Shown here: piece by piece, positions 15,176 to 33,940 of the stretch
How positions within the stretch are numbered: position 1 is the first letter of the stretch
How the letters are laid out: the number at the start of each line of letters is the position of its first letter
Assembly: GCA_002753395.1 (NCBI GenBank)
Contig: PEAB01000038.1
Location: forward strand, 1 to 33,940
Source of the DNA: Nitrospirae bacterium MYbinv3
Lineage (GTDB): Bacteria > Nitrospirota > Thermodesulfovibrionia > Thermodesulfovibrionales > Magnetobacteriaceae
DNA: 33,940 nt
Reading direction: 5' to 3'
Notes under the pieces: model-generated
What the model saw: the letters and a program-made list of their open reading frames with translations, nothing else
What the model was told of the DNA's origin: nothing
The model's database searches: none
Position numbers and translations under genes: made by a program

Positions 15176-16246
15176 TTATTGCGACTGTTCACTTTCCTTT
15201 TGGTCCCATATAGTCTTATGTTTTCTGATTTCAGCCTCAGCCATAAAAAAGCATTCGACGAGGTGTGGATCAAAATGGTTACCTGCGCCTTTTCTAATTT
15301 CGTCAAGGGCCTTTTCAATAGGCCATGCCTCCTTGTACGGACGGCTCATGGTAAGGGCGTCAAAGACATCGGCAATGGCCACAATTCTGGCGCATTCTGG
15401 GATTTCATCCCCTCTTAAACATTTTGGATAACCTGTCCCGTTGTACTTCTCATGGTGATAGTACGCTATGTCAGCTGCCATTTTAAATAGTGGAGTATCG
15501 CTCTTTGATAAAATCTTGTAACCTATCTCAGAGTGAGTCATAATAACCTCCCACTCATGAGGCTCTAATTTGGCTGGCTTTTTCAAGATGCTACTTGGGA
15601 TACCGATCTTTCCAACGTCATGCATTGGCGCTGTGAGCTCAAGTAATGCAATTTGATCAACTTGCATATTTGCCGCCTGCGCTATTGCGACAGAGTAAGT
15701 GGCTATTCTCCATATATGAATACCCGTATCAGTGTCGTTGTAATGGCCGGCCTCGCCAAGCATAAAGATTGCGGACCTCTGGCTCTGTTGCAGTTCTTGC
15801 GTGCGTTGAATAACAGTCTCCTCACACGTCCGTTTCTGATCGTATAGGGCCAGGTGTGTGGCAACCCTCGCTTTAACGATTGGCGGGGACACTGGCTTGG
15901 TGATATAATCAACGGCGCCGACCTCAAATCCAAGATTCTCATCCTCTACGTCTGCCATAGCCGTTACAAAGATAACAGGGATCTTGGCAGTCAAAGGGTT
16001 AGCCTTGAGTCTCCGGCATGTCTCGTAGCCATCCATTACAGGCATCAAGACGTCAAGAAGGATCAGATCCGGATTAACCTCCCAGGCCACATTCAATGCG
16101 CCAACTCCATCTGTAGCAAAGGACAGCGTGTACTTATCCTTCAATATCTGCCTCATAAGTTGTCTATTGCTAGGTTCGTCATCAACAATCAGAACCTTAT
16201 ATCTCATATTCATCAGTATATCCATCCCACTATAAACATCTGTCAC
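15176..16246 (-). CDS. Receiver-HD-GYP protein, probable c-di-GMP phosphodiesterase
   Basis: The protein (356 residues from the first possible start) has an N-terminal receiver with DDE (22-24), phosphoacceptor Asp65 and Lys117, then an HD-GYP domain with HD at 209-210 (PMHDVGKIGIP) and HHEKYNGTGYP (264-274). HD-GYP proteins hydrolyse c-di-GMP; the metal-binding residues look intact. The first possible start is GTG 16246, which overlaps the upstream kinase gene by 17 bases. ATG 16225 or 16213 are equally possible because none has a clear ribosome binding site. It is the last gene of the minus-strand signalling array and its likely output. Confidence 0.92.
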   Translation of the reverse strand: MTDVYSGMDILMNMRYKVLIVDDEPSNRQLMRQILKDKYTLSFATDGVGALNVAWEVNPDLILLDVLMPVMDGYETCRRLKANPLTAKIPVIFVTAMADVEDENLGFEVGAVDYITKPVSPPIVKARVATHLALYDQKRTCEETVIQRTQELQQSQRSAIFMLGEAGHYNDTDTGIHIWRIATYSVAIAQAANMQVDQIALLELTAPMHDVGKIGIPSSILKKPAKLEPHEWEVIMTHSEIGYKILSKSDTPLFKMAADIAYYHHEKYNGTGYPKCLRGDEIPECARIVAIADVFDALTMSRPYKEAWPIEKALDEIRKGAGNHFDPHLVECFFMAEAEIRKHKTIWDQKESEQSQ

Positions 16247-17405
16247 CTGGTCTTACAAGTGGCAGCTCGATAACAAACTCGGCACCATCTAAGGTGTTAA
16301 AAACAGATATCCTGCCTTCCATCTTGCCTTCGATAATAGCCTTTGACATGTAGAGGCCAATACCAGTTCCACCCTCTCCCTTGCTAGTAACATATGGCTG
16401 GAAAAGTTTCTCAAACACAGACTCATCAATTCCCCCGCCATTGTCTCTCCAGTGTACAACAACCATGTCCTTGACCTCCTCAATAGCAATCTCAATAAAC
16501 CCTTCACCTTTGAATTCGCCTTTCTTTATACGTGTCTTGACGGCATCTCGACTGTTGTTTATCAGGTTTAGGATTACCTGCTTAAATTCGTTGACATATC
16601 CTGCCGAATACAGTTTTAAGGTTCTATCTGTGTTGAATCGGATGTTGACGTTATCCTTTTTCAGTTGATCAGAAAAGAGGTTGACCACCTCGTAGAACGC
16701 CTCCGTTACGTTGAAGGTCATCTTCTGGGCGGAGGGTTTCAAGAAGTTTTGAAAATCTTGAACCGTATGCGACATGAGTTTAATAAGATCCATACTCTGT
16801 GTAACTGATTGCTCAAGGTACTTCTTATCCAGTTCACCTACATCAAAGGCATCCTTTATGTCCTGTACGATGAGGCCAAGGGCATTTAACGGCTGTTTCC
16901 ACTGATGAGCAATGGATGCAATCATCTCTCCCATAGCAGCCATCTTAGACTGCTGTATCAGCATCTGTTCCTCGATACGGCGCTTGTTAAGCTCCTCCTG
17001 CACCCTCTTCTCCAGGGACCTTTGCAGGTTATATAGTCTTAAATGCGTCTGAACTCGAGCTATGACCTCCTCCCTTTGAAACGGTTTACATATGTAGTCG
17101 ATCCCGCCGCTGTTAAAAGCGTTGACTTTTTCAGCGATCTCAGTCAAGGCGCTAATAAAAATAACAGGGATATCTGCCGTTTCAGGGGTGGCCTTTAAAC
17201 GGCGACAGGCCTCTATGCCATCCATCTCAGGCATCATAATATCAAGAAGGATAAGATCAGGTCTAACTCTCTGTGCCGCCTCAAGGGCGCTTACACCATC
17301 TGTGGCAAATGATAAATTATACTTATCCATCAATATCAGCCTTAACAGCTTTCTATTATAAGGCTCGTCGTCAACTATTAACACGCTCCACCGAACTTCT
17401 TCCAT
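16230..17405 (-). CDS. Receiver-histidine kinase (cytoplasmic, HQWKQPLN type)
   Basis: The 391 residues contain an N-terminal receiver (acidic pocket DDE at 12-14, Asp55, Lys107), a coiled-coil linker (about 120-155), the phosphoacceptor motif IAHQWKQPLNAL (His167), and a HATPase domain with DNGGGID and GTGIGLYMSK. There is no membrane segment, so it takes its signal from another kinase or a cytosolic cue. AGAGG ends 6 bases before the ATG, and the gene follows the truncated kinase by 2 bases. Its receiver closely resembles that of the next gene (shared LSFATDGV and LILLD blocks), suggesting tandem duplication. Likely the step between hybrid kinase and HD-GYP protein, by inference. Confidence 0.92.
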   Translation of the reverse strand: MEEVRWSVLIVDDEPYNRKLLRLILMDKYNLSFATDGVSALEAAQRVRPDLILLDIMMPEMDGIEACRRLKATPETADIPVIFISALTEIAEKVNAFNSGGIDYICKPFQREEVIARVQTHLRLYNLQRSLEKRVQEELNKRRIEEQMLIQQSKMAAMGEMIASIAHQWKQPLNALGLIVQDIKDAFDVGELDKKYLEQSVTQSMDLIKLMSHTVQDFQNFLKPSAQKMTFNVTEAFYEVVNLFSDQLKKDNVNIRFNTDRTLKLYSAGYVNEFKQVILNLINNSRDAVKTRIKKGEFKGEGFIEIAIEEVKDMVVVHWRDNGGGIDESVFEKLFQPYVTSKGEGGTGIGLYMSKAIIEGKMEGRISVFNTLDGAEFVIELPLVRPGDRCL

Positions 17406-17407
17406 GA

Positions 17408-18262
17408 TTACCTCTCCAGGTCTATTCCTAGCGTCTTAGCAAATATTATAGCTTTACACCTAGCCTCAATAAAGTCTAACTCTTCTATGGATTTCTTGAT
17501 TGGTATGAGCTGTTCATTGCTGATGTAATTATCTAACTCATGGTTCAGCGGTTCAATCTCATCCGGGTTGTATCTTTGAAAAGACTGCATCATCATTGTA
17601 AGAACATCTCGTATCTTCGACATGTTTAACTCTTTATCTATTGGTGGTTTTTCGATTGTCTTCATATACAAGTTATCATTATAGTCAGTGAAGGATGTAT
17701 CATATTTATCCGGTACAGCAGCATTAATTGTAAAGCTAAATGTGCTCCCTTTGCCAAGTTCGCTTTCTACCCAAATCCTGCCTCTCATGAGATTTACTAA
17801 CTTCATGCTTATAGTAAGTCCAAGGCCAGTTCCACCGTATTTTCTGGTTGTGGAGCTATCGGCCTGGCAAAAGCTCTGGAATATCTTTTCTCTATTATCG
17901 GGTGAAATCCCAACCCCTGTGTCCTTCACCGAAAAAAGAAGATATGGTGATTCGTTTTGGATGTGTTCATCTGTTTTTTTAACTTCAAGCACTATCTCAC
18001 CCTTTTTCGTAAATTTCATTGCATTACCCAATAAATTGATAAGTATTTGTCTCAGTCTAGTTGGGTCGCCTTCTAACACACTTGGAATATCTTCAGAGAC
18101 ACGGTAATTAAGACTAAGTCCCTTCTGTGTGGCCTTGAGCATAAACATGTCTATAGATGATTTTACTACATCTGTTATCTTAAATGGAACACTTTCTATT
18201 TCCAATCTACCTGCTTCAATCTTGGAGATATCCAATATTTCACCAATTACTTCTAATAAGCA
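17408..18262 (-). pseudogene. Histidine kinase missing its 5' half
   Basis: The reading frame starts inside the dimerisation domain: LLEVIGEILDISKIEAG, normally the second helix of HisKA, is the first kinase sequence. Then come a complete HATPase (NLLGNAMKF, DTGVGIS, GGTGLGLTIS) and a C-terminal helical module of about 65 residues. The phosphoacceptor His and all sensor sequence are absent. The frame has no ATG or ribosome binding site near its head (TTG at 18235 is the only candidate), and upstream it meets TGA at 18278-18280. Homology stops at 18259, next to a repeat end (18263-18273). The distal end still supplies the ribosome binding site of the downstream gene. It might survive as an ATPase-only fragment, but a remnant is more likely. 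Confidence 0.75.
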
Positions 18263-18276
18263 GGGCGCATAAGAAA

Positions 18277-18298
18277 TTCATACCAATACTGGTATGAA
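18277..18298 (-). terminator. Hairpin downstream of the hybrid kinase
   Basis: Perfect 9-base arms TTCATACCA (18277-18285) and TGGTATGAA (18290-18298) with a 4-base loop. On the minus strand it is followed by TTTCTTATG, giving a weak intrinsic terminator 12 bases after the kinase stop. It adjoins the repeat end GGGCGCATAAG and may be part of the same inserted element. Confidence 0.4.
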
Positions 18299-18310
18299 CG
18301 CAACTTGGTA

Positions 18311-21226
18311 TCACACCTCAAGGTCTATCCCAAACGTATTAGCAAGTATAATAGTTTGACGTTTCGCCTCTACGAAGTCTAACTCTTCCATGTATTTCTT
18401 GATTGGTCTGATCTGTTCACTGGTGATATGTTTATCTAATTCCAGGATCAGCGGCTCAACCTCATCAGGATTGTATCGTTGAAAGGACTCCATCATCTTA
18501 ACAACAATATCTCGTATTGCCGGTATGTCCAATTCACCTTTAGGCTGTTGTTCGACTTCTTCCTGTATCTCTATAGTATTTCGTATTGAATCAGTGACCA
18601 TTTTTAACTCGACTCCGAGATTTTCTAGGAGCGTCCTAACTTTTTCGATATTTCCCTCTTTTAGTGAGCGTTCAACCTCAGTGGATACCTCAAACACGCC
18701 TATTATCGACAAATTCCCAGACAATCCTTTAAGTGAATGTATTATCCTGTAGGCATTTTCTGTATCGTTGTCTACTAAAAGCGAAGAAATATTATCGGCT
18801 GTGCCGCCATACTTACGTGAAAAGTCTAATAGGGCGCTTATGTATGCCATAGTATCTTTCCATGTATTAATGCCTCTTTTAACGTCTACGCCTTTAATCG
18901 CAGGCATATCAGCAGTTGGTGCAGCATTTTTTTCAAGTGAGCTGGTATCGACGCTGTGTCCGAGGCCCTTTGGAACAAGCTGCTCGATCTCATCGAAGAG
19001 TTTATCGAATTCCACTGGCTTACCTGCAATGGCGTCAAACCCCCTACGGGTATACATCTCTTTTTCTTCACTTGTGACGCTGGCGGTTAAGGCTATAATC
19101 GGGATATGTTCATTATAAACTGGCTCCAGCTCACGGATACGCTGTGTGGCCTCTATGCCGTCCATCCCAGGCATCTGTATATCCATAAGGATAAGGTCAA
19201 CAGCCTCACCCTTAAAACGCTCAACAGCTTCAACACCATTTTTAGCCACTATTACAGTATGCCCTTGCTGCTCCAGGCGTGTCTTCAACAAAATGATATT
19301 CTCATCAATGTCTTCTGCGAGCAGTATCCGAAAGACACGGTGTGGTCTTGAGAAAAACGGTTGTTCGTATTTAGCATCTATACCTGCAAGAACCAATTCA
19401 GATCCGTTGTTAGTTTTTTTCATCTTTACGGTAAAGTGGAAAACGCTCCCTTTACCTACCTCACTATCTAACCAGATGTCGCCCCCCATCAATTCAACTA
19501 GCTGTTTGGATATAGTCGTGCCAAGACCTGTCCCCCCAAATCGCCGCGTCATTGAGCCATCAGCCTGTGTAAATGAATCGAAGATACTGTCTATTCTGTC
19601 AAGAGGTATGCCTATTCCCGTATCGGATATGATAAAATGTACGGTGTCTTCTGTGTCAAATGGTCTTACGTCTATGCCGATGCTCCCTCTTTCTGTAAAT
19701 TTTATGGCGTTACCTACAAGGTTTATTATTATCTGTCTTAGGCGTAACGGGTCTCCAATAAAGTTACCCTGCATAGTTGGGTCGATGTTATATGTTAGAA
19801 TAAGGTTTTTTTCACTTACCTTAACGGCAAACGTCTGATAAACGTTTTGGATAAGTTCATTGAGGTTAAACGACTTTAGTTCCAGTTCCATCTTACCGCT
19901 TTCCATCTTGCTGACATCCAGGATATCGTTTATGAGGCTCAGCAACGCCTTTGCCGAATTCCTTGAAATGGTAATATACTGTCTGTTTATCGTTGATATA
20001 CTGTAATCGTCAAGTACCAGGTCCAAGAAACCGAGGATTGAGTTCATTGGGGTTCTGATCTCATGGCTCATATTGGCTAAGAAGGCGGACTTGGTTTTAG
20101 TAGAGGCCTCGGCTGCCTCCTTGGCTGCAGCCAGCTCTGCGGTGCGCTCCTTAACTCGTAACTCTAAATTTTCATAGGCATTTTGGAGTTCAACCTCCGC
20201 CCTATTACGTTCAACTATCTCTTGTTGCAGTTGTTTATAATTCATTTCAAGTCTAACATTAGCAGATAAAAGCTGCTCCGTTCTTCTATCAAACAGATCG
20301 GCCAAACGTTCTAACTCATCTTCAGTCCCCAGCGGGCTGCAATTAACACCTTCATCCCGTGAGGCCATCTCAACCCTTGAGCACAATGTTAAGATAGGTG
20401 AAGATACGCTATTACCGATCCTGATGGCAATAAATACAGCGGCTATGATAAAAAATGCACCAATGAAAGCAAGCTCAGCGATAGCATTATAGATAACCCC
20501 CCTGTACTGCGATTTTAGAGACCCAAGTATAACGGATATTTTTAGTTTGTGAAGGATAGGATGATTCTTGGTTGCAAGTTGTTTGATAACGATATATGAA
20601 CTGTCTCTATCAAAGTTCTTGTCTGTAACCATGAAGTTGTCAGCATACAGTCTATAAAAAAAAGCCTCATCAGGAAGGATTTTATAAAATATGCTTGTTA
20701 AGTCAAATTCGACTATAACGGCTCCCTGTGGAGTATTATAATATTCTATGGGTACAATATAGACAAGATTTCTATTGTCTGAGATATAGAACCTTGGCTC
20801 ACCGGTGGCCAGGGCCATACGAAGGTATCTTGTCTTTGAATAGTCAGGGGGATTGGTCAGATTAAAGTACATAACGGTTTCATCAAAACGCACGATAGTT
20901 ACCGCTGAGATATCCTTTTTGACGAAGCTATCTATTAACTTTGGAAGATATGATGCCCTTCCCTGTGGGTCGACCAGGGCATTGACTACAAAGGGATTCT
21001 TGCTGAAGTTTGTAGTAATGTCAAAGAGATAAGATAAGCGCTGTTCAAGGTTGCTTATACAATGTTCGTTATAGACCTTGAGTTCCTTGTTTAACTCAAC
21101 TGTTAAGGTCTTTTCTAACAGGACGGCAACTGTGATTATTATAGAGATTAGGATTACTAGTATTAAGGTTATGTAATGAAATAATATCCTTTGTCTGAGC
21201 CTTTTCTTAGGAGGATTAACTGTCAC
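18311..21226 (-). CDS. Membrane hybrid sensor kinase with receiver, HPt and C-terminal helical module
   Basis: The 971 residues run: transmembrane segment (about 16-38), periplasmic sensor region (about 40-245), second transmembrane segment (250-270), HAMP-like linker and coiled coil (270-375), HisKA with SHEIRTPMN (His388), HATPase (DTGIGIP, GGTGLGTT), receiver (Asp682), HPt with HSLKGLSGN (His830), and a C-terminal module (about 904-971). All parts of a phosphorelay are in one protein. The GTG start overlaps the stop of the binding-protein gene (GTGA), so the two are translationally coupled and probably form one receptor. The output partner may be the receiver proteins downstream. The same C-terminal module ends the truncated kinase next door. 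Confidence 0.92.
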   Translation of the reverse strand: MTVNPPKKRLRQRILFHYITLILVILISIIITVAVLLEKTLTVELNKELKVYNEHCISNLEQRLSYLFDITTNFSKNPFVVNALVDPQGRASYLPKLIDSFVKKDISAVTIVRFDETVMYFNLTNPPDYSKTRYLRMALATGEPRFYISDNRNLVYIVPIEYYNTPQGAVIVEFDLTSIFYKILPDEAFFYRLYADNFMVTDKNFDRDSSYIVIKQLATKNHPILHKLKISVILGSLKSQYRGVIYNAIAELAFIGAFFIIAAVFIAIRIGNSVSSPILTLCSRVEMASRDEGVNCSPLGTEDELERLADLFDRRTEQLLSANVRLEMNYKQLQQEIVERNRAEVELQNAYENLELRVKERTAELAAAKEAAEASTKTKSAFLANMSHEIRTPMNSILGFLDLVLDDYSISTINRQYITISRNSAKALLSLINDILDVSKMESGKMELELKSFNLNELIQNVYQTFAVKVSEKNLILTYNIDPTMQGNFIGDPLRLRQIIINLVGNAIKFTERGSIGIDVRPFDTEDTVHFIISDTGIGIPLDRIDSIFDSFTQADGSMTRRFGGTGLGTTISKQLVELMGGDIWLDSEVGKGSVFHFTVKMKKTNNGSELVLAGIDAKYEQPFFSRPHRVFRILLAEDIDENIILLKTRLEQQGHTVIVAKNGVEAVERFKGEAVDLILMDIQMPGMDGIEATQRIRELEPVYNEHIPIIALTASVTSEEKEMYTRRGFDAIAGKPVEFDKLFDEIEQLVPKGLGHSVDTSSLEKNAAPTADMPAIKGVDVKRGINTWKDTMAYISALLDFSRKYGGTADNISSLLVDNDTENAYRIIHSLKGLSGNLSIIGVFEVSTEVERSLKEGNIEKVRTLLENLGVELKMVTDSIRNTIEIQEEVEQQPKGELDIPAIRDIVVKMMESFQRYNPDEVEPLILELDKHITSEQIRPIKKYMEELDFVEAKRQTIILANTFGIDLEV

Positions 21227-23388
21227 TTTACACCTTTATTGATTGGAACTATGGTTCCATTGCTGTCATATCTAGCCATAAAATAATCATTGACATTAAG
21301 TGCATCATGCCTTGTCTGCGTAAAAGGAGGTGAGTATCGCTTTATCAGGCCATCGTGATAATCAATATTTTCAAGGGCTTGCCGTATAAGAGGTCGATCA
21401 AGTACTCCAGCCTTATTGATTGCAATTGCCAACAGGTGGACAAGGTCATAGGCCTGAGCTGTAGCACTAGGGACAGATATCTCCCGAGCTGACTTGACAT
21501 GATAAGCGTCCATATATTGCTTAATTACGCGTTTAGTCTTTTCATCTTTAGTATCTAAAAAAGTAAAAGTCTGAATGAAACTCAAATCTATATTTTCAAG
21601 TTCCCTTTTTACGTCTTGCCAGAAGTACCCTCCGGTAATAGACCAGTGGGATAAGACTGGTATCTTCTGTTGTCGTAATGTCAAGGTTTTAATGGTTATT
21701 ATACCCTCTGGACTTGTTGCAATGAGCAATATAATCTCAGCTCCAGAATTCTCAATCCTGGTAATCTGTTGTACCATATTTTCCTCACCATAATTAAACC
21801 ACTCAACTGCGTATGGTTTAAAACCTTTTTCACTTATGAACTTCATCATAATCTCATTATTCTCTCTGCCCCAAAGACTATTTACAATCAAAAAGGCTAA
21901 TTTACGAGATGATTTCATTGCTTGGCGTATAATAAAAGGCGCTGCCTCAGTATCGTTGATAGAGATCCTGAACACATAATTGGGATTGTATGGATTCTTT
22001 ACAATCTTGTCAGCAGCAGCCCAGGGGATGAGATATATAATCTTATCTCTATGTATCTTCTCCAGATCGGACAGTATTACTGAGCTATGAAGACCTCCCA
22101 TAATAGCAACCAAGTTCCGCATCTTGCTGAATTGTTCTACGTTGTTCAGACTACGTGCAGGGATCCCTGCGTGATCCATCACAACGATGGATAACTTCTT
22201 GCCAAACACTCCCCCCTGCTTATTAATCTCATTTACGGCAAGTTCCATCCCTCTCTTTATGGCCATACCTGACAGGGCTGAACCAAGACTTACATCAGCG
22301 TTTAGACCAATTATGATATCGTCCTCTTCTTTATAGTGATACTTCTTTTTTAGAAAGTCCACCGTTAAGTCTATGACGTCATCCCCTATTATTGTTCTGT
22401 ACTTATCGGTGATATGTCTGGTTGCCTCATGGAAGTCGTAGATCTGTTTTTCATTGAGGGCGGTTATGCTAACGCCAGCCTCGCTAATTGTCTTCATATA
22501 CCTCACCTCATCTTTGGCTATCTGCTGTCTCTCAAACGCAGTCAACTCTCTAGCTGTAGAGATTAGAATTTGCACAATGTCATAGGGGAGAGAGTCGAGC
22601 GTTTTCTTGCTAAAGCAAAACACATAGGCCAGATAGGCATGGTTGCTGATTATTAAGTGAGATTGAACCTCGTAAAACTTAAGACTGTATATGGGGGCAA
22701 TGGGATTCTCCTGTGCATCAACCACCCTGTCCTTTAGCGCCCTGTAGGTTTGATGAAAATCTATAGGGATTGGGTTTGCCCCAAAGGCAAAAAACTGATC
22801 CATAATCAGATTGCTCTTCATAATGCGAACGTTCATACCACTGAAATCCTTTGGGGAGTAAATAGCCTTATTGGCAGTAAACTGTTTAAAACCATTTCCC
22901 CAGAAGGCAGCACCAACAAGTCCATGTTCTTTGAGCCTTTCCAGAAGCAGGCTGCCTGGTTTGCCGTCTAACATCTCATAGGCGTCCTCTATTTTTGGAA
23001 ACAGGAATGGGATATCTGAGTACTGCAAAGCCGGCAGTATTATGCTTAGTTTTGCGGTTGGTGACAGCAGGATATCTAATTGTCCATCTATGGCCATTTC
23101 GATCATCTGGTGATCGTTTGCCAACTGCTGTGACGGGTGGATAGTAATCTTCACCCTATTCTTTGTTCTTTCACTTACAGTATCGGCATACTTCTGCGCT
23201 GCAACGTGCATGGCGCTGTCAGCAGGCATGTTGTGGCCAAAGCTCAACTCATAGACCTTCTCATCTGTATGTCTGGAGTTGGCAGTCTTAGAGCTGTACC
23301 AGCCAAGGAGGTAGAAGAGAAAAAGCCCCGTTATCACTGACACAACGACGATAGCAATAAACAGCCTCTTTGAGTTAGTCCTGTTCAT
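21223..23388 (-). CDS. Fused TRAP DctP-type and ABC Peripla_BP_6-type periplasmic binding protein
   Basis: The 721 residues begin with a hydrophobic anchor (about 9-28, no lipobox Cys), then a complete DctP-type domain (45-350) and a complete branched-chain-amino-acid/amide-type domain (about 357-715). In the first, GMNVRIM carries Arg188, the usual carboxylate-binding Arg of TRAP proteins, and VVDAQENP matches the family motif VDGxExP. The second shows GMELAVNEINKQGG and a typical two-lobe layout. No TRAP membrane subunits or ABC permease genes are near, and the next gene, overlapping by 4 bases, is a membrane hybrid kinase. A sensing rather than a transport role is therefore inferred. Ligands cannot be read from sequence. 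No clear ribosome binding site precedes the ATG. Confidence 0.9.
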   Translation of the reverse strand: MNRTNSKRLFIAIVVVSVITGLFLFYLLGWYSSKTANSRHTDEKVYELSFGHNMPADSAMHVAAQKYADTVSERTKNRVKITIHPSQQLANDHQMIEMAIDGQLDILLSPTAKLSIILPALQYSDIPFLFPKIEDAYEMLDGKPGSLLLERLKEHGLVGAAFWGNGFKQFTANKAIYSPKDFSGMNVRIMKSNLIMDQFFAFGANPIPIDFHQTYRALKDRVVDAQENPIAPIYSLKFYEVQSHLIISNHAYLAYVFCFSKKTLDSLPYDIVQILISTARELTAFERQQIAKDEVRYMKTISEAGVSITALNEKQIYDFHEATRHITDKYRTIIGDDVIDLTVDFLKKKYHYKEEDDIIIGLNADVSLGSALSGMAIKRGMELAVNEINKQGGVFGKKLSIVVMDHAGIPARSLNNVEQFSKMRNLVAIMGGLHSSVILSDLEKIHRDKIIYLIPWAAADKIVKNPYNPNYVFRISINDTEAAPFIIRQAMKSSRKLAFLIVNSLWGRENNEIMMKFISEKGFKPYAVEWFNYGEENMVQQITRIENSGAEIILLIATSPEGIITIKTLTLRQQKIPVLSHWSITGGYFWQDVKRELENIDLSFIQTFTFLDTKDEKTKRVIKQYMDAYHVKSAREISVPSATAQAYDLVHLLAIAINKAGVLDRPLIRQALENIDYHDGLIKRYSPPFTQTRHDALNVNDYFMARYDSNGTIVPINKGVK

Positions 23389-24915: not shown

Positions 24916-25875
24916 TTAACTAACCTGAGACAAACGCCATCGTATAGTATTCCGAATCCCTTCTTCAAGCATAACCCTGGCCTCAACGCCTAGGACGGTC
25001 TTTGACTTATCTACCAACAGGCAGCTCTTTTTAAGGTCACCGGCTCTGGCAGGTCTACTAATGGGGATACCTAAGCGTTCATCCAGGTCGGGTTTATACA
25101 ACTTTAACATATCATATATTACGTCAAACAACTCCCTGGTATGAGTCTCCTTACCTGTGCCTATGTTTACGGCCTCACCACTGCCCCTATCGATGGCCGC
25201 AAGGTTGGCCGCCACGACGTCGGAGACATTGCAGTAGTCGCGAATCATACCCATTGGTTCATCCTGATAGTGATACAAAACGCACTCCTGGCCGCTCAAG
25301 AGTCTATCCATAAATATCGCAACCACACCGGCCTCTCCATGAGGTATCTGTCTTGGCCCATAGACGTTGGCATATCTTAAGACGGTATAGTCTAATGCGT
25401 ATTGATGTCTATAAAAGTACAGGTATTGCTCCGACACCGCCTTTGTTACCGCATAGGGCGATAGCGGCTGCGGGTGGCAGGACTCCGAGGTTGGGTACTC
25501 GGTAGCCTCTCCGTAGATAGCGCCTTAGGAGGATATAAAAATAACCTTCCGTACCTCTGTCCGTCTTGCCGCCTCAAGTAGATTGATAAGCCCCAATACG
25601 TTGACATCTGCGTCATAGCCTGGGTCATCCACAGAGGCAGGTACCGACATCTGGGCTGCGTGGAGGTTTATTATGTCAAACATCTCTTTTTGAAAGACCT
25701 TTAGCACCTCTCTACTGCGGATATCCATAAGATAGAAACGAGCTTTTGGGTTGACGTTCTCCCACTTACCACCTGAGAGGTTGTCCATGACGACAACGTC
25801 ATACCCCGCCTCTACGTAGGCATCAACCACGTTTGAACCTATAAAACCGGCCCCGCCCGTAACTAATATCTTCAT
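24916..25875 (-). pseudogene. NAD-dependent sugar-nucleotide epimerase broken by an in-frame TAA
   Basis: One continuous frame of 320 codons encodes a GalE/WcaG-like short-chain epimerase: GGAGFIGS (7-14) NAD-binding loop, conserved NVLGLINLLEA, the catalytic YAVTK, then VLRYANVYGP and a substrate domain. Codon 117 (25525-25527) is TAA, in the strand ending in the active-site Ser/Thr, where related proteins read SSGG or SSSA before the IYGE motif. Both sides are in the same frame and otherwise intact, so the change is a point mutation or a base-call error, not decay. A TCA to TAA single change would explain it. The second half could start at GTG 25437, but without the NAD fold. Confidence 0.85.
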
Positions 25876-25918: not shown

Positions 25919-25963
25919 GTAACCAAAGCATTGATAAGTACCTGCTCATAATTAATTATATAC

Positions 25964-26056
25964 AAAAAAGGGAGGGCTTTGCCTCTGCCGCAGGGGTTCG
26001 CAACCCCCTCCCTCAGACCCACCCACAAGGGGACCAGCCCCCTTGACCCCATTATA
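25964..26056 (-). terminator. GC-rich repeat acting as terminator of the Cache kinase operon (copy 2)
   Basis: Reading the minus strand, GGGTCAAGG is followed by a CCCCTTG-type hairpin, then a long hairpin with arms GGGAGGG (26006-26012) and CCCTCCC (25970-25976) enclosing an inner GGGGTT/AACCCC hairpin, ending in six T (25969-25964). It begins about 24 bases after the kinase stop at 26080. Same repeat family as 15052-15113 and 33743-33888. Confidence 0.75.
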
Positions 26057-26079: not shown

Positions 26080-27885
26080 TTAAGTACCCACAGCAATCAG
26101 CTTTATTATAAACTCCGTTCCCTCTTCTATGTTTCTGGTTAGCAACTTGCCGCCCATGTTTTTTTCTATTATTGTTTTTGAGATAAATAGGCCAAGACCG
26201 GTACCTTGTTCTTTAAATTTAGTTGAAAAATATGGTTCAAAGATTTTATCTCGTATATCTTCAGGTATTCCACCACCATTATCAGTTATCGAAATAATTA
26301 TTTCACCATTACTTTCCGAGAATATCATATTGATTTTCCCTGTAAAGTCAGAACTGCTTTTAATCCGTTTATATAATATGGCATCCCTAGAATTATTCAT
26401 TAAGTTAAGGATCACCTGTTTAAATTCATTTGGATAACCTATAGTTATTGGTGTTAGTTCAGTGTTGGTAGTCTCAAGGCTTATTTCTAAATCGTTTTTC
26501 TTATATGAACTGCCAAGCATGTATAGCAGCTCTTCAATTGCGGTTATTACGTTAAAATTGATCTTTTCTTTAATTGGTAACAAGAAGTTTCTAAAATCAT
26601 CAATGGTTCGTATCATAAAATTGACTTGTTCACGTGTGGTACTAACTGTTTTATCAATATACTCTTTATCAAGCTCTCCATATTCATAGGCATCCTTAAT
26701 GTCATAGATGTTTAGGGATAAAGCATTCAATGGTTGTTTCCACTGATGAACTATCATACCGATCATTTCACCTATTGTTGCCATCTTAGATTGTTGAATC
26801 AGTAGTTGTTCATTCTGTTGTCTCAACTTTATTTCACAATCAACAGTCTGTTCTAAATCCTTGGTTAGAGATTGCAGTTGCTTTGTTTTGCTCTGCAAGT
26901 CCTCCTCCGCCTGCTCACGATACGTTGTGAATTTATAAGATAAGTACATGAATACAAAAGTACCGATGATGAAGATAACTACCAGAGTTGACGTTATAGT
27001 AAGTTCATGCTTCCAGTCCCTAAGATAATCATTAGCAGCTATTCCTACAACGACATAAAGGGGATAGTTAGTTATCTTTCGATAAGAAACATATTTTGCC
27101 ATGTTATCAAAACTCGTTGGTGTAAAAAACGTACCAAACGTCTGCCCTGCCTCATAACGTCTTCTAAGTTCTGGAGATATATTCTTATTGCCGATATCGC
27201 TTCCAACAATCTTGGGTTGAGGATATCGGGTGATTATTGCCATCTCCCAATTACGCAAGCTAATCCCCCCGTTAGGTCCTACATCAATAGAAGAAAATAT
27301 CTTAGTAATGTGCTCTAATGCAATGTTAGCATAAACAATACCAGCAAAAGAGCCGTCCGAGTAATCGATCCGTCTGGCAAGTGCAACAACCCATTTCTTG
27401 CTGATGCGTGCAAAGACAGGCTTTGATATTACCAACTTGAACGCTGTATCACTGTAGGCTCCAATAAAGAAATCCCGGTCCGAAAGATTTACCTTGGAGC
27501 CTTGTGGCACGCCAAGGCCATACCTTACAGTTCCCTGCGCATCGGTTATCCTCAGGCTTTCAAGTGTGGGCAAACGTCTCTGATGCTCCGCAAGGAGTGA
27601 AGTTAAACTATTGCCGTCAATGTTACCAGTATCATTCATTTTTTTTACCTCATCGGCGATGTCTACCAAGATCATATCTATTTTATCTATAAATCCACCT
27701 ACGTATTGTTCAAGCACCTGAGATAGGTTTTGAGATGTGACGGCAGCCCTTTGCTCTGCTTGATGTCTGCTGTTACGCAGATATCCAACACTCAGAACTA
27801 TGACAAAGAGGTCGATCAGCAATATGCCTATTGCTAGCATCTTGAAGAAGATGGATAGAGATGCTGTGTTTTTGTCTTTAATCAA
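26080..27885 (-). CDS. Cache-domain sensor histidine kinase
   Basis: The 601 residues show a transmembrane segment (about 16-37), an extracellular double-Cache-like sensor (40-290, with LRITDAQGTVRYG and SDRDFF), a second transmembrane segment (296-317), a coiled coil, the phosphoacceptor motif IVHQWKQPLNAL (His380) and a HATPase (DNGGGIP, GTGLGLFISK). Cache sensors usually bind small carboxylates, amino acids or similar solutes in the periplasm. TTG 27885 is the only early start; ATG at residue 16 would remove the positive residues before the membrane segment. No clear ribosome binding site is seen. It lies 12 bases after the large kinase and shares its transmitter type. Confidence 0.9.
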   Translation of the reverse strand: MIKDKNTASLSIFFKMLAIGILLIDLFVIVLSVGYLRNSRHQAEQRAAVTSQNLSQVLEQYVGGFIDKIDMILVDIADEVKKMNDTGNIDGNSLTSLLAEHQRRLPTLESLRITDAQGTVRYGLGVPQGSKVNLSDRDFFIGAYSDTAFKLVISKPVFARISKKWVVALARRIDYSDGSFAGIVYANIALEHITKIFSSIDVGPNGGISLRNWEMAIITRYPQPKIVGSDIGNKNISPELRRRYEAGQTFGTFFTPTSFDNMAKYVSYRKITNYPLYVVVGIAANDYLRDWKHELTITSTLVVIFIIGTFVFMYLSYKFTTYREQAEEDLQSKTKQLQSLTKDLEQTVDCEIKLRQQNEQLLIQQSKMATIGEMIGMIVHQWKQPLNALSLNIYDIKDAYEYGELDKEYIDKTVSTTREQVNFMIRTIDDFRNFLLPIKEKINFNVITAIEELLYMLGSSYKKNDLEISLETTNTELTPITIGYPNEFKQVILNLMNNSRDAILYKRIKSSSDFTGKINMIFSESNGEIIISITDNGGGIPEDIRDKIFEPYFSTKFKEQGTGLGLFISKTIIEKNMGGKLLTRNIEEGTEFIIKLIAVGT

Positions 27886-27897
27886 AACGAGTTCTGC

Positions 27898-30800
27898 TCA
27901 TTTATTGCTAATCTCAATTGTAAACACAGCGCCATCTCTAACATTATGGGCATATAGTTTACCATTCATAATTCTTTCTACTATCATCTTTGATGTATAT
28001 AATCCTAATCCGGTACCTTGTTTTTTGAACTTTGTCGTAAAATAGGGTTCATAGATTTTGTCATTTAATCCCTCTGGTATCCCTCCGCCATTGTCCGCTA
28101 CTGCTATACAAATTGTTCCATTTTTTTTGTAGAAAGAGATATCTATGACCCCATCATCTATTAATAACCCTTTGGTTCTTCTTTCATCAATTGCATCGAC
28201 AGCGTTATTTATCAGGTTTAACAACACCTGAGTGAGTTCATTTCTATTAGACATGACTCCCATTTCACCACAACACAACACCGATAACGCCCTCTCAAAT
28301 ACTCCTCCATGAAGAGAGCAACTAAACTTAAACGTTATATCCTTTGATTGAAGCTCGTCATAAAACAACGACACGACCTCATCAATGCAGGTTCTAATAT
28401 CATATGTCTCATGTTCCGATGTTGTTTTAACGAGATCTCTGAAGGTATCGATAACGTTAGACATGTATTGGATATGAGAGCCAGCCTTGTCTACCAGTTC
28501 ATATAAGTATTCCTTATCTAATTCTCCATAGTTATAGGCGTCTTTAATATCAAAAATCAGTGAATTAATGGCATTTAGTGGTTGTCTCCAATGGTGGGCA
28601 ATATTTATTAATAATTCACCAAGAGACGATATCTTTGATTGATTTATCAGTAAGTAATCCTTTTGTCTGCTATTATTGACTTCCTCTTCGACTCTCAGTT
28701 TTAGTGTCCTATTTATTTGCTCTAGTTCCCTAAATAAACGGGCATTTTCTATAGATATTGCCATCTGAGGTATCAGTATATTTAAAACTGTTATACGATT
28801 GGCAGAAAATACCCCTGTTGTAAGATTGTTTTCGAGGTATAAAACCCCTATAACCTTTTTTACATGGATAACCGGTAACGATAAGATTGACCTTGGCTTC
28901 TTCCTTCTTATATATGGGTCGGCTCCAAATTGTTCGTCCTCAATAGCGTTATCAATAATAACAGTTTTACCGGTATTGGCAACATAATGGACTATCTCGC
29001 CAGAGATATCAAGATCAACACTAAGAGGTGTCGAGTGCAATATTTGTATGTCATCCAAGTTGGATGAGGATTCAACAAACAACACCCCCTCTGACAAAAA
29101 CAATATAACCCCTCTCTGCGCCCCAGCCGTTTCCATAATAATCTTCATCATCTTTGTCAACAGTTTATCCATGTCGACTTCACTTGAGATGATCTGCGTG
29201 GACTCCATTACAGAAACTAAATCATATCCCGTAACGCTACCTGTTGTAGTATACGTACTTAACGATTGTATAAAGCCTGTGTGTCTCGTCTCCACCGATT
29301 CAAATAAATCAGGGTAGACTATCTTTAACCTTTGAGATTTGTATATAGCGCCCCATGTAAAATATTCATAAACCGCTTCATTCATATAAACTCTTGCTAT
29401 CTTAGTGTTGTTTTTTTGTAACCAAAACTTTGCCATAAGCTCATTTACAAGTGCTTCAACCTGGATGAACCCGTTTTCCTTAGCAGATTGAATCGATTGT
29501 TCATACAACGTTATCGCTTCCATATCATCTCCGGTAATACAGGCAATCTCCGCACTTATCAAATAATACATATGAAGAAAGTTCTCTTTACAGTTTTCCG
29601 CCCATATCCACATCTGCTTTTTAACTGCAAGCAGCTTCTCCATATGTATTTTCTTTTCTTCCTCTGAAGCCATTGTATAAAGTGATGCGATAACTAAAGA
29701 ATAATAGAACCTGTATTGGGCTGTAGGCAAGAGACTCTGTGTTGCAACTGAGATAAGTCTTTTTTCAACCTCCTCTGAGACCTCTAATGCCTCTTTTGAC
29801 CTGTCATATAAATAAAGCACTTGCATCTTGAGGATATAGTATATGCAGAGAACCTGTATGTTTCCATTGGCATTACACTGGCGCAGGTACTCGTCCTCTG
29901 TCAGTTCGTTATACTGAAAAACACTATCTGTTTTTCCTTGCAAATTAGAGATTATTATCTGAACACCTGTGATTAAATCAATAGCCCACCGGTTTTGTCT
30001 GGCCTTACTGAATTTAATTAATTTCGTTAGTTCCTCTTCAAGCTCGTTTAATGGTTTTCCATAATAAAACATGCAGTAGGTGTTGTGCCCAAAGGCATAG
30101 CCTGAGTACTGCAAGTTACCAGATTCTAAACCAGCATGGTATGCCTCGTTGTAGTCCTCCTCTGCATATTTAAGATGTTTATACCATGGTTTTAAGGAAC
30201 TTCCTATCATTAAATACGCTACGCTTCTATCGGATGGATTGTTATATTTTTTACACAGGTTCTCGGTAAGTTCGGCATATTCTGATGCTGACTTATAATC
30301 GTTAAAGACATAACCCAGAAGTCCGCCAAAAGATGGGTATGTATAAGTAGCAGAGGAGACGTCACCGTATTTGAGGCAAAGTAGGACCTCCATAGGGATA
30401 ATAACCGCCCATAGTCTTTGATGGGTGCGATAGCATGGTGGTCCAAGGCTTGTTAACAACCTCATGGCAATTATCTTATCTTGCCGGGTCATTGGGGGTA
30501 AATCGATAAGCGAACTTATGGTTTTTCCTTTCATTAGTGCCATGACATTAGCAATTTGTTCGTCTCGTGCCTTTGGCAAATCACCGGTGTCCTCCGGCAG
30601 CTTTATGCCAACATATGAGAGGGCATCTCTGGCGGTTTGAATGGCCTCTTTGTATCTAGCCCTCATCGTATACTGCACTATAAGTATATGGAGAAGCTCG
30701 GCCTTTTCTTCTGGTGTTCTAATATACTCCAAGGCGGCATAGATGTACCTCTCTGAAATGTCGTCATTATCATTGAGGTATTCAACCGTTGCCCTTTCTT

Positions 30801-33195
30801 TGTATATCTCCTTTGCTAATTCGTAGTTTCTGTCCCATATACTGTCAGGCAATCTTTCCATGGCGTATTTCAAGTAGGTCAGCGAGGCTGAGTATGCAAT
30901 AGATTCCCTTGCTTTTTGGGAAGCCCGGAGGTTTAATTCGCATAGTTCTATCAATTCCAGGTCTGTTGTAATCAGACTTCTTCCCTTGTTCAAGTGGTCT
31001 AATACTGTGAAAATATTCCCGTTAAGACTTTCTCTACTGAAGTGTCTTATTAAGCGTTGTCCTATATTATAGTGGATTGATTCTATATTGTTTTCATCCA
31101 GTAGGGAGTATGCTGCCTGCTGTACACGATCATGCAAGAACTTAAAATTCATTATTATTGGCTTAGCGCTTAGGATATCTTCCTTTGTTATTTCAAGGGC
31201 TGAGGTAGAGAGTATCAATTCCTCATTGATTGCGGGCATAAGTTGTTGATACAAATCTATTGGTTGTGTCTTCATAATCACAGATATCGTATCTAAGTCA
31301 AACCTGTTACCAATGCATGACGCCATACTCAGCGCATATTGAGTAGTTTCTGGAAACTTCCTCAGTTTGTGTATCATAAAATCAACAACGTTATCAGTAA
31401 TGTCTGCTTTTTCAATTAACGAGATATCACAGGACCAGCCAAATCTTTCTTCTTTACAACTATCAGAATTATAACTAAACTTAATAAGCCCATCTTCATA
31501 CAATCTCTTGAGAAATTGATTGATGAAAAACGGGTTACCTGCTGTCTTGCTTATAACGATATCAACTAACCTTAAGACGTCTTCATTACGGCTATGGAGG
31601 GTATCGCATAACAGTTGTTCTATATCAACGCTATTTAGAGGGTCAAGGTTGATCTCGTTGATAGTTGTTCCTGACTTCTTTAGTCTATTGATAGAGAGCA
31701 TCAGGGGATGTGTAGGACTCACCTCATTATCCCTGTAAGCCCCTATAAGGATAAAATGATTTATTTCCTTATCAAGCACTATCAATTCAATAAGTCTAAG
31801 CGTGGTTATATCTGCCCACTGAAGGTCGTCCAGAAATATAACCAACGGGTGTTCTCTCTGAGAAAACTGCTTAATAAAACTGGTAAAAATCTCATTAAAA
31901 CGGTTCTGTGCCTCAACTGGAGGCAGTTCTTGCACAGGCGGCTGTTCTCCGATTATCAATTTCATCTCAGGGATTACGTCTATTATTACCCGACCGCTTG
32001 CTCCTAAAGCTCTCATAAACTGCTGCCTCCACCACCCTAACTGTTCACCGCTTTCAGACAGTAACTGGTTTAACAACCCCCTGAACGCACCGATTATAGC
32101 ACTGCATGGTATGTTTCTTTGAAACTGATCAAATTTACCGTGTGAAAAATATCCTCGGCTGGCCGTAACCGGTTTGTATAATTCCTTAATTAGAGATGTC
32201 TTTCCAATCCCAGAATATCCGTAAACAAGTACCATCTGACGTCCACCGTTAGATACCTCATCAAATCTCTCCATTAAACCTGATAACTCACTGTCTCTTC
32301 CGTAGAGCTTATTAGAAATATGCAACTTATTTGGCACATCGTGTCTTCCAATTATAAAACTTGATATCTCACCATTTAATAGTTTTATGCAATCGACCAG
32401 GTCAACCTTTATACCGTGTGCGCTCTGATATCTGTCAGAAGGGGATTTGCTTAGCAGTTTCATTACAACATCTGACAAGAGTACAGGTATATCACTGTTT
32501 GTCATGTGTGGCGGCTTAGGTTCCTTGGCAATATGGCAATATACTATATCCAGCGGATCATTAAAGGCAAATGGAAGCATGTTACATAATAACTCATACA
32601 GGGTTATCCCAAAAGAGTAGTAATCTGTACGATAATCTATCGGTATATTCACTCTTCCTGTCTGCTCCGGCGATATGTATGACAGTGTTCCTTCTATTAA
32701 CTCTGGGATCGATATGATCGGGTCTTCTCTTGATAATACTGTAGATATCCCAAAATCTATTATCTTTAGCTCCCAAGTATCTGGGTTTAAAACGATATTT
32801 GATGGATTTATATCTTTATGGATTATGTGTGCTGAGTGGAGCTCCTCCAAGGCGTCTGCTATTATACATCCTAACGATAAGACCTCTTTGGTTGTAAGTT
32901 TACTGCGCCTATATAATGTTTTTAAAGATTCTCCACCAAAATCCTCAAATATTATAGCTAATGTGTTATTATACTTTACAAGCTCATATGAACATATCAC
33001 ATGTTCAAAATTTTTCCCGTAGGTTATTTCATATTCTTGCTTGTAGCGGTTAAGAGATCTTTGTTTGGGATATTCGTCTCTAAGTATCTTTATGATTACA
33101 GGTACAGTATCTATAAGACGAATAGCTCGATAAACAACGCTATTGTTGTTTTCATCCGTCTTAGAAATTACTCTATAACCCTTTAATTCAATCAC
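27898..33195 (-). CDS. Trifunctional Ser/Thr kinase - STAND ATPase - GAF - histidine kinase
   Basis: The 1765 residues run: Ser/Thr kinase (7-270; Lys36, HKDINPSN with Asp128, DFG at 147-149, SPEQTG), AAA/STAND ATPase (about 297-520; GYSGIGKTS at 326-334, LVIFLDDLQWAD near 451-462), a long TPR-like helical region (about 700-1290), GAF (about 1325-1490), coiled coil, and a histidine kinase with IAHHWRQPLNAI (His1534), DNGGGIP and GTGLGLYTSK. This is the known large family of hybrid Ser/Thr-histidine kinases found in cyanobacteria, myxobacteria and others. It has no membrane segment, so it is cytoplasmic. All catalytic residues appear intact. Start is GTG, 7 bases after the receiver gene, without a strong ribosome binding site. 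Confidence 0.93.
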   Translation of the reverse strand: MIELKGYRVISKTDENNNSVVYRAIRLIDTVPVIIKILRDEYPKQRSLNRYKQEYEITYGKNFEHVICSYELVKYNNTLAIIFEDFGGESLKTLYRRSKLTTKEVLSLGCIIADALEELHSAHIIHKDINPSNIVLNPDTWELKIIDFGISTVLSREDPIISIPELIEGTLSYISPEQTGRVNIPIDYRTDYYSFGITLYELLCNMLPFAFNDPLDIVYCHIAKEPKPPHMTNSDIPVLLSDVVMKLLSKSPSDRYQSAHGIKVDLVDCIKLLNGEISSFIIGRHDVPNKLHISNKLYGRDSELSGLMERFDEVSNGGRQMVLVYGYSGIGKTSLIKELYKPVTASRGYFSHGKFDQFQRNIPCSAIIGAFRGLLNQLLSESGEQLGWWRQQFMRALGASGRVIIDVIPEMKLIIGEQPPVQELPPVEAQNRFNEIFTSFIKQFSQREHPLVIFLDDLQWADITTLRLIELIVLDKEINHFILIGAYRDNEVSPTHPLMLSINRLKKSGTTINEINLDPLNSVDIEQLLCDTLHSRNEDVLRLVDIVISKTAGNPFFINQFLKRLYEDGLIKFSYNSDSCKEERFGWSCDISLIEKADITDNVVDFMIHKLRKFPETTQYALSMASCIGNRFDLDTISVIMKTQPIDLYQQLMPAINEELILSTSALEITKEDILSAKPIIMNFKFLHDRVQQAAYSLLDENNIESIHYNIGQRLIRHFSRESLNGNIFTVLDHLNKGRSLITTDLELIELCELNLRASQKARESIAYSASLTYLKYAMERLPDSIWDRNYELAKEIYKERATVEYLNDNDDISERYIYAALEYIRTPEEKAELLHILIVQYTMRARYKEAIQTARDALSYVGIKLPEDTGDLPKARDEQIANVMALMKGKTISSLIDLPPMTRQDKIIAMRLLTSLGPPCYRTHQRLWAVIIPMEVLLCLKYGDVSSATYTYPSFGGLLGYVFNDYKSASEYAELTENLCKKYNNPSDRSVAYLMIGSSLKPWYKHLKYAEEDYNEAYHAGLESGNLQYSGYAFGHNTYCMFYYGKPLNELEEELTKLIKFSKARQNRWAIDLITGVQIIISNLQGKTDSVFQYNELTEDEYLRQCNANGNIQVLCIYYILKMQVLYLYDRSKEALEVSEEVEKRLISVATQSLLPTAQYRFYYSLVIASLYTMASEEEKKIHMEKLLAVKKQMWIWAENCKENFLHMYYLISAEIACITGDDMEAITLYEQSIQSAKENGFIQVEALVNELMAKFWLQKNNTKIARVYMNEAVYEYFTWGAIYKSQRLKIVYPDLFESVETRHTGFIQSLSTYTTTGSVTGYDLVSVMESTQIISSEVDMDKLLTKMMKIIMETAGAQRGVILFLSEGVLFVESSSNLDDIQILHSTPLSVDLDISGEIVHYVANTGKTVIIDNAIEDEQFGADPYIRRKKPRSILSLPVIHVKKVIGVLYLENNLTTGVFSANRITVLNILIPQMAISIENARLFRELEQINRTLKLRVEEEVNNSRQKDYLLINQSKISSLGELLINIAHHWRQPLNAINSLIFDIKDAYNYGELDKEYLYELVDKAGSHIQYMSNVIDTFRDLVKTTSEHETYDIRTCIDEVVSLFYDELQSKDITFKFSCSLHGGVFERALSVLCCGEMGVMSNRNELTQVLLNLINNAVDAIDERRTKGLLIDDGVIDISFYKKNGTICIAVADNGGGIPEGLNDKIYEPYFTTKFKKQGTGLGLYTSKMIVERIMNGKLYAHNVRDGAVFTIEISNK

Positions 33196-33202
33196 TTTAG
33201 TT

Positions 33203-33613
33203 TTATAAAAGTTCTACTGATAATCTATATAGATGATCTAAAAACTGATCTTCATTTATTGGCTTTATGAAATACCCCTGAATTATATATTTCTTTGCCA
33301 TTTTCAGAGAGGCTTCATCTGATATAGCCGAAATTACAACTATAGGAACTGTCTTGTCAATCTCCCTTATATGTTTAATCAACTCAAGCCCATCGTGTTT
33401 AGGCATCAGGAGATCGGTCAACACTATGTCAGGTTTGAATTTTATGTATAACTCCAACCCTCCTTTACCATCACTGGCTGTATATATCTCTTTAAACCTT
33501 CTCCTCAGTGATTTTAATGACGCCTCTTTAACCATTTCCTCATCCTCTACAAACAATAGCGTCAGGGTTTGCTTAATCTTCTGTATGTATTCTTTTTGCT
33601 TATCGTCAGTCAT
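33203..33613 (-). CDS. Stand-alone receiver (CheY-like response regulator)
   Basis: The 136 residues form a single receiver domain: FVEDEE acidic pocket (21-26), phosphoacceptor Asp67 in LTDLLMPKHDG, a conserved Ser95 and Lys117 in FIKPIN. There is no DNA-binding or enzymatic output domain, so it probably acts by protein contact or as a phosphate shuttle. It is first in the three-gene minus-strand set with the Ser/Thr-histidine kinase (7-base gap) and the Cache kinase, so it is the likely phosphoacceptor for one or both. A promoter-like pair lies 50-80 bases upstream. Confidence 0.92.
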   Translation of the reverse strand: MTDDKQKEYIQKIKQTLTLLFVEDEEMVKEASLKSLRRRFKEIYTASDGKGGLELYIKFKPDIVLTDLLMPKHDGLELIKHIREIDKTVPIVVISAISDEASLKMAKKYIIQGYFIKPINEDQFLDHLYRLSVELL

Positions 33614-33693: not shown

Positions 33694-33742
33694 TACTTCA
33701 CTGGATTAGGGTGAATAACAAAGTCGTGTTTTTTTCAAAGAA

Positions 33743-33786
33743 GGGGAGGCTCTGCCCACTGCCGCAGGGGTTCGCAACCCCTCCCC
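33743..33786 (-). repeat. GC-rich hairpin repeat, copy 3
   Basis: Arms GGGGAGG (33743-33749) and CCTCCCC (33780-33786) enclose an inner GGGGTT/AACCCC hairpin, with the same CTGCCGCAGGGGTTCGCAA core as 25986-26003. On the minus strand a T-rich stretch follows after a short gap. Confidence 0.6.
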
Positions 33787-33823
33787 TCAGACCTAATGCT
33801 GTTGACTTAAGGTTGTGAAGATG

Positions 33824-33847
33824 AAAAAAAGGAGGGCTTTGCCCTCC
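33824..33847 (-). terminator. Strong intrinsic terminator (minus strand)
   Basis: Perfect 7-base GC-rich arms GGAGGGC (33831-33837) and GCCCTCC (33841-33847) with a 3-base loop, followed on the minus strand by seven T (33830-33824). It probably ends a gene lying to the right of the window. The upstream part of the repeat includes the perfect palindrome AAGGGAAC/GTTCCCTT at 33863-33880. Confidence 0.75.
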
Positions 33848-33940
33848 CTTAGACCCTCCCACAAGGGAACTTGTTCCCTTGACCCTGTAAATGTCAGGCG
33901 TGGCTGCTTAAAATGTCGCCCATGTGCATACATATTAATG

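Follow-up and report, generated by a model that had tools for sequence, protein, structure and literature searches.

A stretch of 33,940 nucleotides from Nitrospirae bacterium MYbinv3 (contig PEAB01000038.1, positions 1 to 33,940; hereafter, the window) carries on its minus strand three adjacent genes for a lone receiver, a dual kinase of the HstK type and a Cache histidine kinase. Sequence comparison identifies these genes as a conserved signalling unit, which we infer to be co-transcribed. We lean, with restraint, towards the view that the block is a bow-tie, in which cytosolic STAND/GAF and periplasmic double-Cache (dCache) inputs would feed one single-domain receiver by phosphotransfer. 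The window is the whole of one contig (C61) in a 3.7 Mb genome of 175 contigs, with an estimated completeness of 96.6%. The features of the block, and of the sequence immediately downstream, are as follows:

33203-33613, minus strand: lone receiver, 136 amino acids, start codon ATG
27898-33195, minus strand: open reading frame of the HstK-type dual kinase, 1765 amino acids, start codon GTG
32371-33195, minus strand: Ser/Thr kinase domain of HstK, residues 1-275
31036-32355, minus strand: predicted STAND ATPase core of HstK, about residues 281-720, with Walker A at 326, Walker B at 452 and a GNPFF motif
29296-31035, minus strand: TPR-like helical sensor arm of HstK in the AlphaFold2 model, about residues 721-1300
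28732-29223, minus strand: GAF domain of HstK (Pfam), about residues 1325-1488
27901-28728, minus strand: HxWRQPL-type histidine kinase module of HstK, residues 1490-1765, with His1534 as the phosphoacceptor
26080-27885, minus strand: open reading frame of the Cache kinase, 601 amino acids, start codon TTG
27007-27780, minus strand: predicted periplasmic double-Cache sensor of the Cache kinase, about residues 36-293
25965-26050, minus strand: copy of an interspersed repeat (the supposed terminator), downstream of the block

A conserved gene order

A previous sequence-only reading had proposed three genes separated by 7 bases (receiver/HstK) and 12 bases (HstK/Cache kinase), and inspection of the open reading frames bore out both the coordinates and the gaps; the domains it named were recovered with Pfam, and His1534, His380 of the Cache kinase and Asp67 of the receiver are all in place. 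The GTG start of the large gene is backed by an orthologue with ATG at the equivalent position. Hydropathy plots show two transmembrane-like stretches in the Cache kinase and none in HstK or the receiver, which fits the proposed division into a cytosolic and a periplasmic input. The Cache kinase lies in frame with HstK, and the two are separated only by TGA and four codons (27886-27900), none of which is ATG, GTG or TTG.

The receiver matches Pfam Response_reg over residues 20-128 (E 5e-20), with no other Pfam match at E 0.001 and hence no output domain in its 136 residues; it has the phosphoacceptor Asp67, the acidic pair D24/E25 and K117. Its orthologues in genome G003, of the same genus (64% identity), and in genome G012, of another genus (63-64%), join it in one clade (support 100/99) of a tree of 23 short receivers, three of which (C69, C131, L034) form long branches.

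The neighbourhood of these orthologues is conserved as well. In G003, a kinase truncated at the contig end is followed by the receiver, HstK (69%) and the Cache kinase (68% over the part present); two of the junctions are gaps (2 and 103 bases) and one is an overlap. The truncated gene, an HxWKQPL kinase, ends 2 bases before the receiver. In G012, a PAS kinase of 821 residues, which the kinase tree pairs with the upstream kinase of G003 as its sister (100/99), is followed by the receiver and by a Cache kinase (65-69% over the Cache part) that is broken into two frames (L083 7108-9326). The 182 bases between this receiver and the Cache kinase (L083 6926-7107) contain matches to HstK residues 864-884, 1731-1738 and 1747-1764, in that order and in three frames. 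In a blastn search that left aside G012 records and duplicates of loci already included, the two best matches of the gap among the loci compared (E 7e-5 and 2e-4) both fell in the 3' end of the G003 HstK gene, one of them running over the stop codon; the next match covered 18 bases (E 0.01). At the protein level, the C-terminal part of this scrap is not specific for HstK (score 54, compared to 56 and 55 for two other kinases, with modules cut at a fixed length), whereas with full C-termini and the second fragment included, the G003 HstK ranks first (92, compared to 88 for the next); in 300 shuffles, the top score was 52, below the observed 54. It is the DNA-level matches, and the order in which they occur, that support reading the gap as the remnant of a deleted HstK gene. 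Given this remnant, the cassette appears to predate the divergence of these two genera and to have been reduced later, with the apparent loss of HstK in G012 and, as far as the contig goes, of the upstream kinase in the window, where matches to that third kinase in the 327 bases left are at chance level. An alternative history, the late insertion of HstK into an older cassette, was dropped once the scrap was found.

This conservation also bears on the simplest alternative, namely, that three unrelated signalling genes happen to be neighbours in a genome where genes of this kind abound. With 142 receiver matches and dozens of HxW-type kinases in 3.7 Mb, such encounters are bound to be considered, but a second species has kept the order, with 64-69% identity, and a gene remnant traces it in a second genus, which makes chance a highly improbable explanation. 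Elsewhere in the family, G004 has a Cache kinase without an adjoining receiver, and no close match to the receiver or the Cache kinase was found in G002, G005, G007, G010, G011 and others. A literature search, limited for this bacterial group and mostly covering open-access papers, returned no paper naming this cassette, and we make no claim that it is unpublished.

The two kinases

The large protein matches, in Pfam, Pkinase (residues 18-259, E 1.2e-33), AAA_16 (residues 296-483, E 1.5e-37), GAF_2 (residues 1340-1483, E 9e-13), which lies between the kinase and the histidine kinase, and, at the C-terminus, HATPase_c (E 3.3e-17). It is the sole full-length match in its own genome, the other 104 being partial and mostly confined to the histidine kinase end. 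Orthologues were found in G003 (69% over the full length) and G008 (64%), with a partial one, the closest relative that bears a name, in Candidatus Magnetomicrobium cryptolimnococcus of the Magnetobacteriaceae, Nitrospirota (best segment 62%). Divergence between the window and G003 is low in each of the five parts of the protein, with nonsynonymous divergence (dN) of 0.16-0.23 and a proportion of synonymous differences (pS) of 0.71-0.74, that is, near saturation. The protein had been called a dual-specificity kinase; two types of kinase domain are indeed present, but that term usually denotes Ser/Thr plus Tyr specificity and the published one is "dual protein kinase".

This name was given to proteins with a kinase, GAF and histidine kinase layout (PMC1262709, PMC2176072); the HstK type was described in a 2001 paper cited in PMC2176072, where the swapping of tails and GAF domains in cyanobacterial STK family III is already discussed. 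Homologues from Nostoc and its relatives (L048-L051, L053, L054) share the N-terminal Ser/Thr kinase, the GAF domain and the C-terminal histidine kinase, with 38-39% identity in the best segment, which extends from query residues 1-7 to 1493-1762; the alignment mostly ends at residues 1505-1530 and reaches 1762 in one case. The fungal proteins Chk1, Mak2 and Mak3 are described as having a Ser/Thr kinase, AAA_16, GAF and histidine kinase in this same order (PMC9069115); going by this description, the likeness is one of layout, and Chk1 differs in carrying its own receiver domain, which is a separate gene here. Taken together, the Pfam domains, the cyanobacterial alignment and the published layouts place the protein, by sequence, in the HstK (dual protein kinase) family, so that its architecture is already known. 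What is new is the gene setting, the type of tail and the old, conserved gene order. What sets the protein of the window apart from the family is its end, an HxWRQPL module without a Pfam HisKA match at E 0.001, and the position of its gene next to those of the lone receiver and the Cache kinase. In the cyanobacterial loci listed above, six in all, which run past the gene (L052 and L055 end inside it), profile searches detected no receiver or HxW-kinase gene within three open reading frames, with little upstream sequence available in L053.

Several HstK-type proteins depart from the full-length form. Those at L109 3482-8697 (G140) and L133 4606-9059 (G373) are split into two open reading frames; in G140, the split lies between the TPR and GAF regions, with a 4-base overlap. 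Both splits would stem from natural gene fission or from a frameshift. In G006 (L107 9005-11849), a shortened version consists of a Ser/Thr kinase plus AAA open reading frame overlapping that of an HxW kinase, with no TPR or GAF region found in the pair. This pair is directly followed by a lone receiver, a second case of an HstK-receiver association.

The sequence-only reading considered the Ser/Thr kinase intact. The catalytic residues are indeed present (Lys36, Asp128, Asn133, Asp147), but the glycine-rich loop is incomplete, as it is in all 16 displayed rows of the alignment. We compared 25 proteins, 18 from Nitrospirota (the phylum of the window, window included) and 7 from cyanobacteria. 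The Nitrospirota set comes from searches at E 1e-100, which gave matches in 10 of the 176 genomes of the order and 16 of the 395 genomes of the phylum, plus one further homologue search. L047 and L050 were not in the first alignment, and L050 and L052 were added in the second. The table covers proteins with an N-terminus, in which G278 and G385 belong to one genus; outside it stand the partial Magnetomicrobium protein, G234, a second G003 copy that is short at the N-terminus (L110), and L055, a fragment. Seven of the 18 Nitrospirota proteins retain the Asp of the HxD motif (the window, G003, G001, G007, G267, G369 and G196, with G369 lacking the DFG Asp), and 11 have lost it, two from G009 and one each from G012, G048, G081, G140, G006, G385, G278, G373 and G226. 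Because this Asp is kept here and lost in so many relatives, the Ser/Thr half of the window protein could be a credible enzyme, a statement that does not extend to the Nitrospirota proteins in general. The losses (loci L091-L094, L107-L109, L130, L131, L133 and L134) suggest a repeated turn to pseudokinases within one phylum.

The persistence of the domain in the 11 proteins without the Asp, together with the incomplete glycine loops and with DLG in place of DFG in the G003 orthologue, speaks for a different role, in which the Ser/Thr fold would serve mainly for docking or allosteric control, leaving the protein to signal by His-Asp chemistry alone. Against this, the window and G003 proteins keep the Lys, the HxD Asp and the Asn, their kinase domains show as little change (dN 0.19) as the other parts, and the HxD Asp and the other motifs are retained in all 7 cyanobacterial homologues aligned; we regard the docking role as possible rather than probable.

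The middle of the protein has the Walker A (GYSGIGKT at 326) and Walker B (VIFLDD at 452) motifs, and G553-N554-P-F-F, in which G, N and the last F are invariant columns of a 15-row alignment; Walker A, Walker B and GxP are the defining motifs of STAND proteins. An AlphaFold2 model of residues 281-1320, built from 15 sequences, consists of an ATPase core followed by helical repeats, with a mean predicted local distance difference test score (pLDDT) of 85.2. Foldseek ranks 6mfv first for this model, at E 9e-11 and with a TM-score of 0.34 by query; 6mfv is a STAND protein that has a TPR sensor. VIA-align gave Z 15.8 for 6mfv (613 residues aligned, root-mean-square deviation (rmsd) 9.0) and Z 17.9 for MalT, 8bob (379 residues, rmsd 4.9), while helical-repeat chains that are not STANDs reached Z 20.5; APPBP2, APC/C and separase top that list, and we took them as generic helical repeats. 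A profile of residues 281-1320 retrieved no match at E 0.001 among the PDB sequences. Accordingly, the similarity to STAND ATPases with TPR sensors, a group that takes in 6mfv, MalT, Apaf-1 and the NLRs, is one of predicted fold, to be read alongside the low TM-score and the equally high scores of other helical repeats, and the window protein differs from them in that kinases flank the core on both sides. With these qualifications, the prediction for this region is a STAND ATPase of the MalT/NLR kind that carries a TPR sensor, so that GAF may not be the only cytosolic input.

The C-terminal tail is of the H-x-W-[RK]-Q-P-L type, its DHp domain being identified by this motif and by kinship to 37 other modules of the same genome rather than by Pfam HisKA. 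That genome has 55 kinase matches above 98 bits, and among those fetched and checked for the motif, HxW was seen in 38 distinct modules, which, with 12 from relatives, make up the 50 modules of the kinase tree. The HstK tails of the window, G003 and G008 form one clade (100/100) whose nearest kin is unsure. Other Nitrospirota HstK proteins end in H-E-[IL]-R-T-P types (G001, G009, G012, G278, G369) or in modules of a second HxW clade, "GELLxNIAHHW" (G009, G006). We compared groupings, named after the tree was seen, by the approximately unbiased (AU) test. The origin of the tail by local duplication of the neighbouring kinases was discarded, as a single clade for them is rejected (p-AU 0.003), and one origin for all five HxW tails on HstK proteins is weakly rejected (p-AU 0.040). 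The tree places the window tail outside the second clade, but the AU test does not reject a group that unites the two (p 0.48). An aromatic residue at His+14 occurs in 6 of the 50 modules, including the three HstK and both Cache modules; this was noticed post hoc and was not used.

The Cache kinase has the layout of a transmembrane segment, dCache, a second transmembrane segment and an HQWKQPL module with His380. Pfam gives HATPase_c (E 2e-19), dCache_1 (E 6e-9, below the gathering score) and dCache_1_like (E 7e-7, above it). A profile built from its Cache part finds the solved chain 3lif_A (E 2.9e-28), listed as a putative diguanylate cyclase, which we take to be a double-Cache sensor domain; the structure model of this part has a mean pLDDT of 54.

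Proposed phosphotransfer through a shared receiver

Lone receivers next to such kinases are common in this genome. Of its 142 receiver matches, 31 occupy frames no longer than 160 codons, and among these short receivers, 8 adjoin, on the same strand, one of the 55 best-scoring kinase matches. As a hand estimate for random placement is under one, a lone receiver accompanied by one such kinase or by two is a recurrent arrangement in the genome, and the cassette is distinguished from the other sets by having HstK as one of its kinases. Contigs C32 and C108 hold two further kinase-receiver-kinase sandwiches; in both (L111 3687-9812 and L112 2290-8747, respectively), the first kinase belongs to the "GELLxNIAHHW" clade and the second to the main clade. 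In all five cases of a "GELL" kinase with an adjoining lone receiver, the receiver is of one clade, which holds for only one of the eight others (Fisher 0.005; 13 pairs hand-picked after the trees, uncorrected for kinship, with C93 and C69 left out and the neighbours of several tree receivers outside the sample). A strict rule is contradicted by the second kinase at C32 and at C108, and we take the pairing of kinase clades with receiver clades as a hint only.

The bow-tie that we favour builds on the domains, the catalytic residues, the gene order and the predicted topology and fold; from these, we infer phosphotransfer, STAND activation and Ser/Thr activity. STAND proteins pass from a closed, ADP-bound form to ATP-bound multimers (PMC6468293, PMC4381067). 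Binding of an inducer or a partner would probably, as in MalT, open an ADP-bound HstK monomer to an ATP-bound, assembling form; assembly would bring the GAF-histidine kinase tails together and would let the N-terminal Ser/Thr kinase act on its neighbours or on itself. HstK and the Cache kinase would autophosphorylate at His1534 and His380, respectively, and both would add phosphate to, or remove it from, Asp67 of one shared diffusible receiver; the receiver would then act by binding a partner or by passing the phosphate on. A layout with one lone receiver and several kinases is known for MrrA, a single-domain receiver reported to be phosphorylated by at least six kinases (PMC5964349). The likeness is one of layout: MrrA is alphaproteobacterial, and in the window, two kinases adjoin the receiver.

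The MrrA system also provides the model for an alternative in which the receiver would ferry phosphate between the two kinases, one of them autophosphorylating and the other acting mainly as a phosphotransferase or phosphatase, in the way that PhyK, per the same report (PMC5964349), takes phosphate from MrrA rather than acting as a kinase. The position of the receiver between two kinases, in the cassette and in the two other sandwiches of the genome, suits such a relay. However, both kinases keep the N-box, G1 and G2 (by eye) and match HATPase_c over nearly its full length, so that neither looks dead, and we consider the relay fairly unlikely. Another version would make the STAND platform the integrator: an intracellular inducer would assemble HstK into a multimer that unites Ser/Thr kinase and histidine kinase in a single particle, and its Ser/Thr part would gate the receiver or the Cache kinase, yielding an AND gate for intracellular and periplasmic inputs at the one receiver, with the Ser/Thr part serving in many Nitrospirota relatives as a pseudokinase regulator of the same platform. 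We view this as unlikely.

Several observations weigh against a shared receiver fed by two kinases. The three cassette kinases are not close kin, one clade for them being rejected, so that a shared partner was not inherited from one ancestor. Downstream of the HstK orthologue in G008, no Cache kinase start is evident in the 102 bases left, and a search of 12 family members found a receiver more than 60% identical to that of the window in G003 and G012 alone. The receiver could also serve other HxW-type kinases of the genome. Hpt domains account for 17 matches in the genome, none of them assigned to the cassette as a partner.

Flanking sequence and significance

The sequence-only reading had also counted a promoter and a terminator as operon evidence, which we rejected because the scan is at chance level and the hairpin belongs to an interspersed repeat. 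Promoter-like sites number 30, compared to 26.7 (standard deviation 4.9) in shuffles; the one ahead of the receiver (33693-33664) matches at 9 of 12 positions, with TG before the second hexamer. There are 5 terminator-like sites, compared to 5.1 (standard deviation 2.9), none of them just downstream of the block, and the region 25955-26055 folds no better than its own shuffles (z -0.23). The repeat at 25965-26050 has at least 40 copies in the genome, all 40 places scored, out of 638 first-look candidates, matching at 92-100%. It is rich in hairpins, and similar letters were seen by eye upstream of the receiver, at about 33735-33885, close to the contig end.

Beyond the repeat, a gene for an NAD-dependent epimerase (24916-25875, minus strand) is split by an in-frame TAA into pieces of 116 and 173 codons, both matching Pfam Epimerase, by pseudogene formation or an assembly error. 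Farther along (15176-23388, minus strand), there is a second signalling cluster with a receiver-HD protein, a receiver-kinase, a HATPase protein, a hybrid kinase with a receiver and Hpt, and a 721-amino-acid open reading frame joining DctP and Peripla_BP_6 binding domains.

The survey in PMC2176072, in its accessible part, gives no phosphotransfer partner for dual kinases of the HstK type. The cassette would offer a small system in which to test HstK phosphotransfer, the cross-talk of Ser/Thr and His-Asp phosphorylation, and a histidine kinase driven by a STAND module, and the occurrence of intact and Asp-lacking Ser/Thr domains within one phylum would provide a natural comparison of enzymes and pseudokinases.

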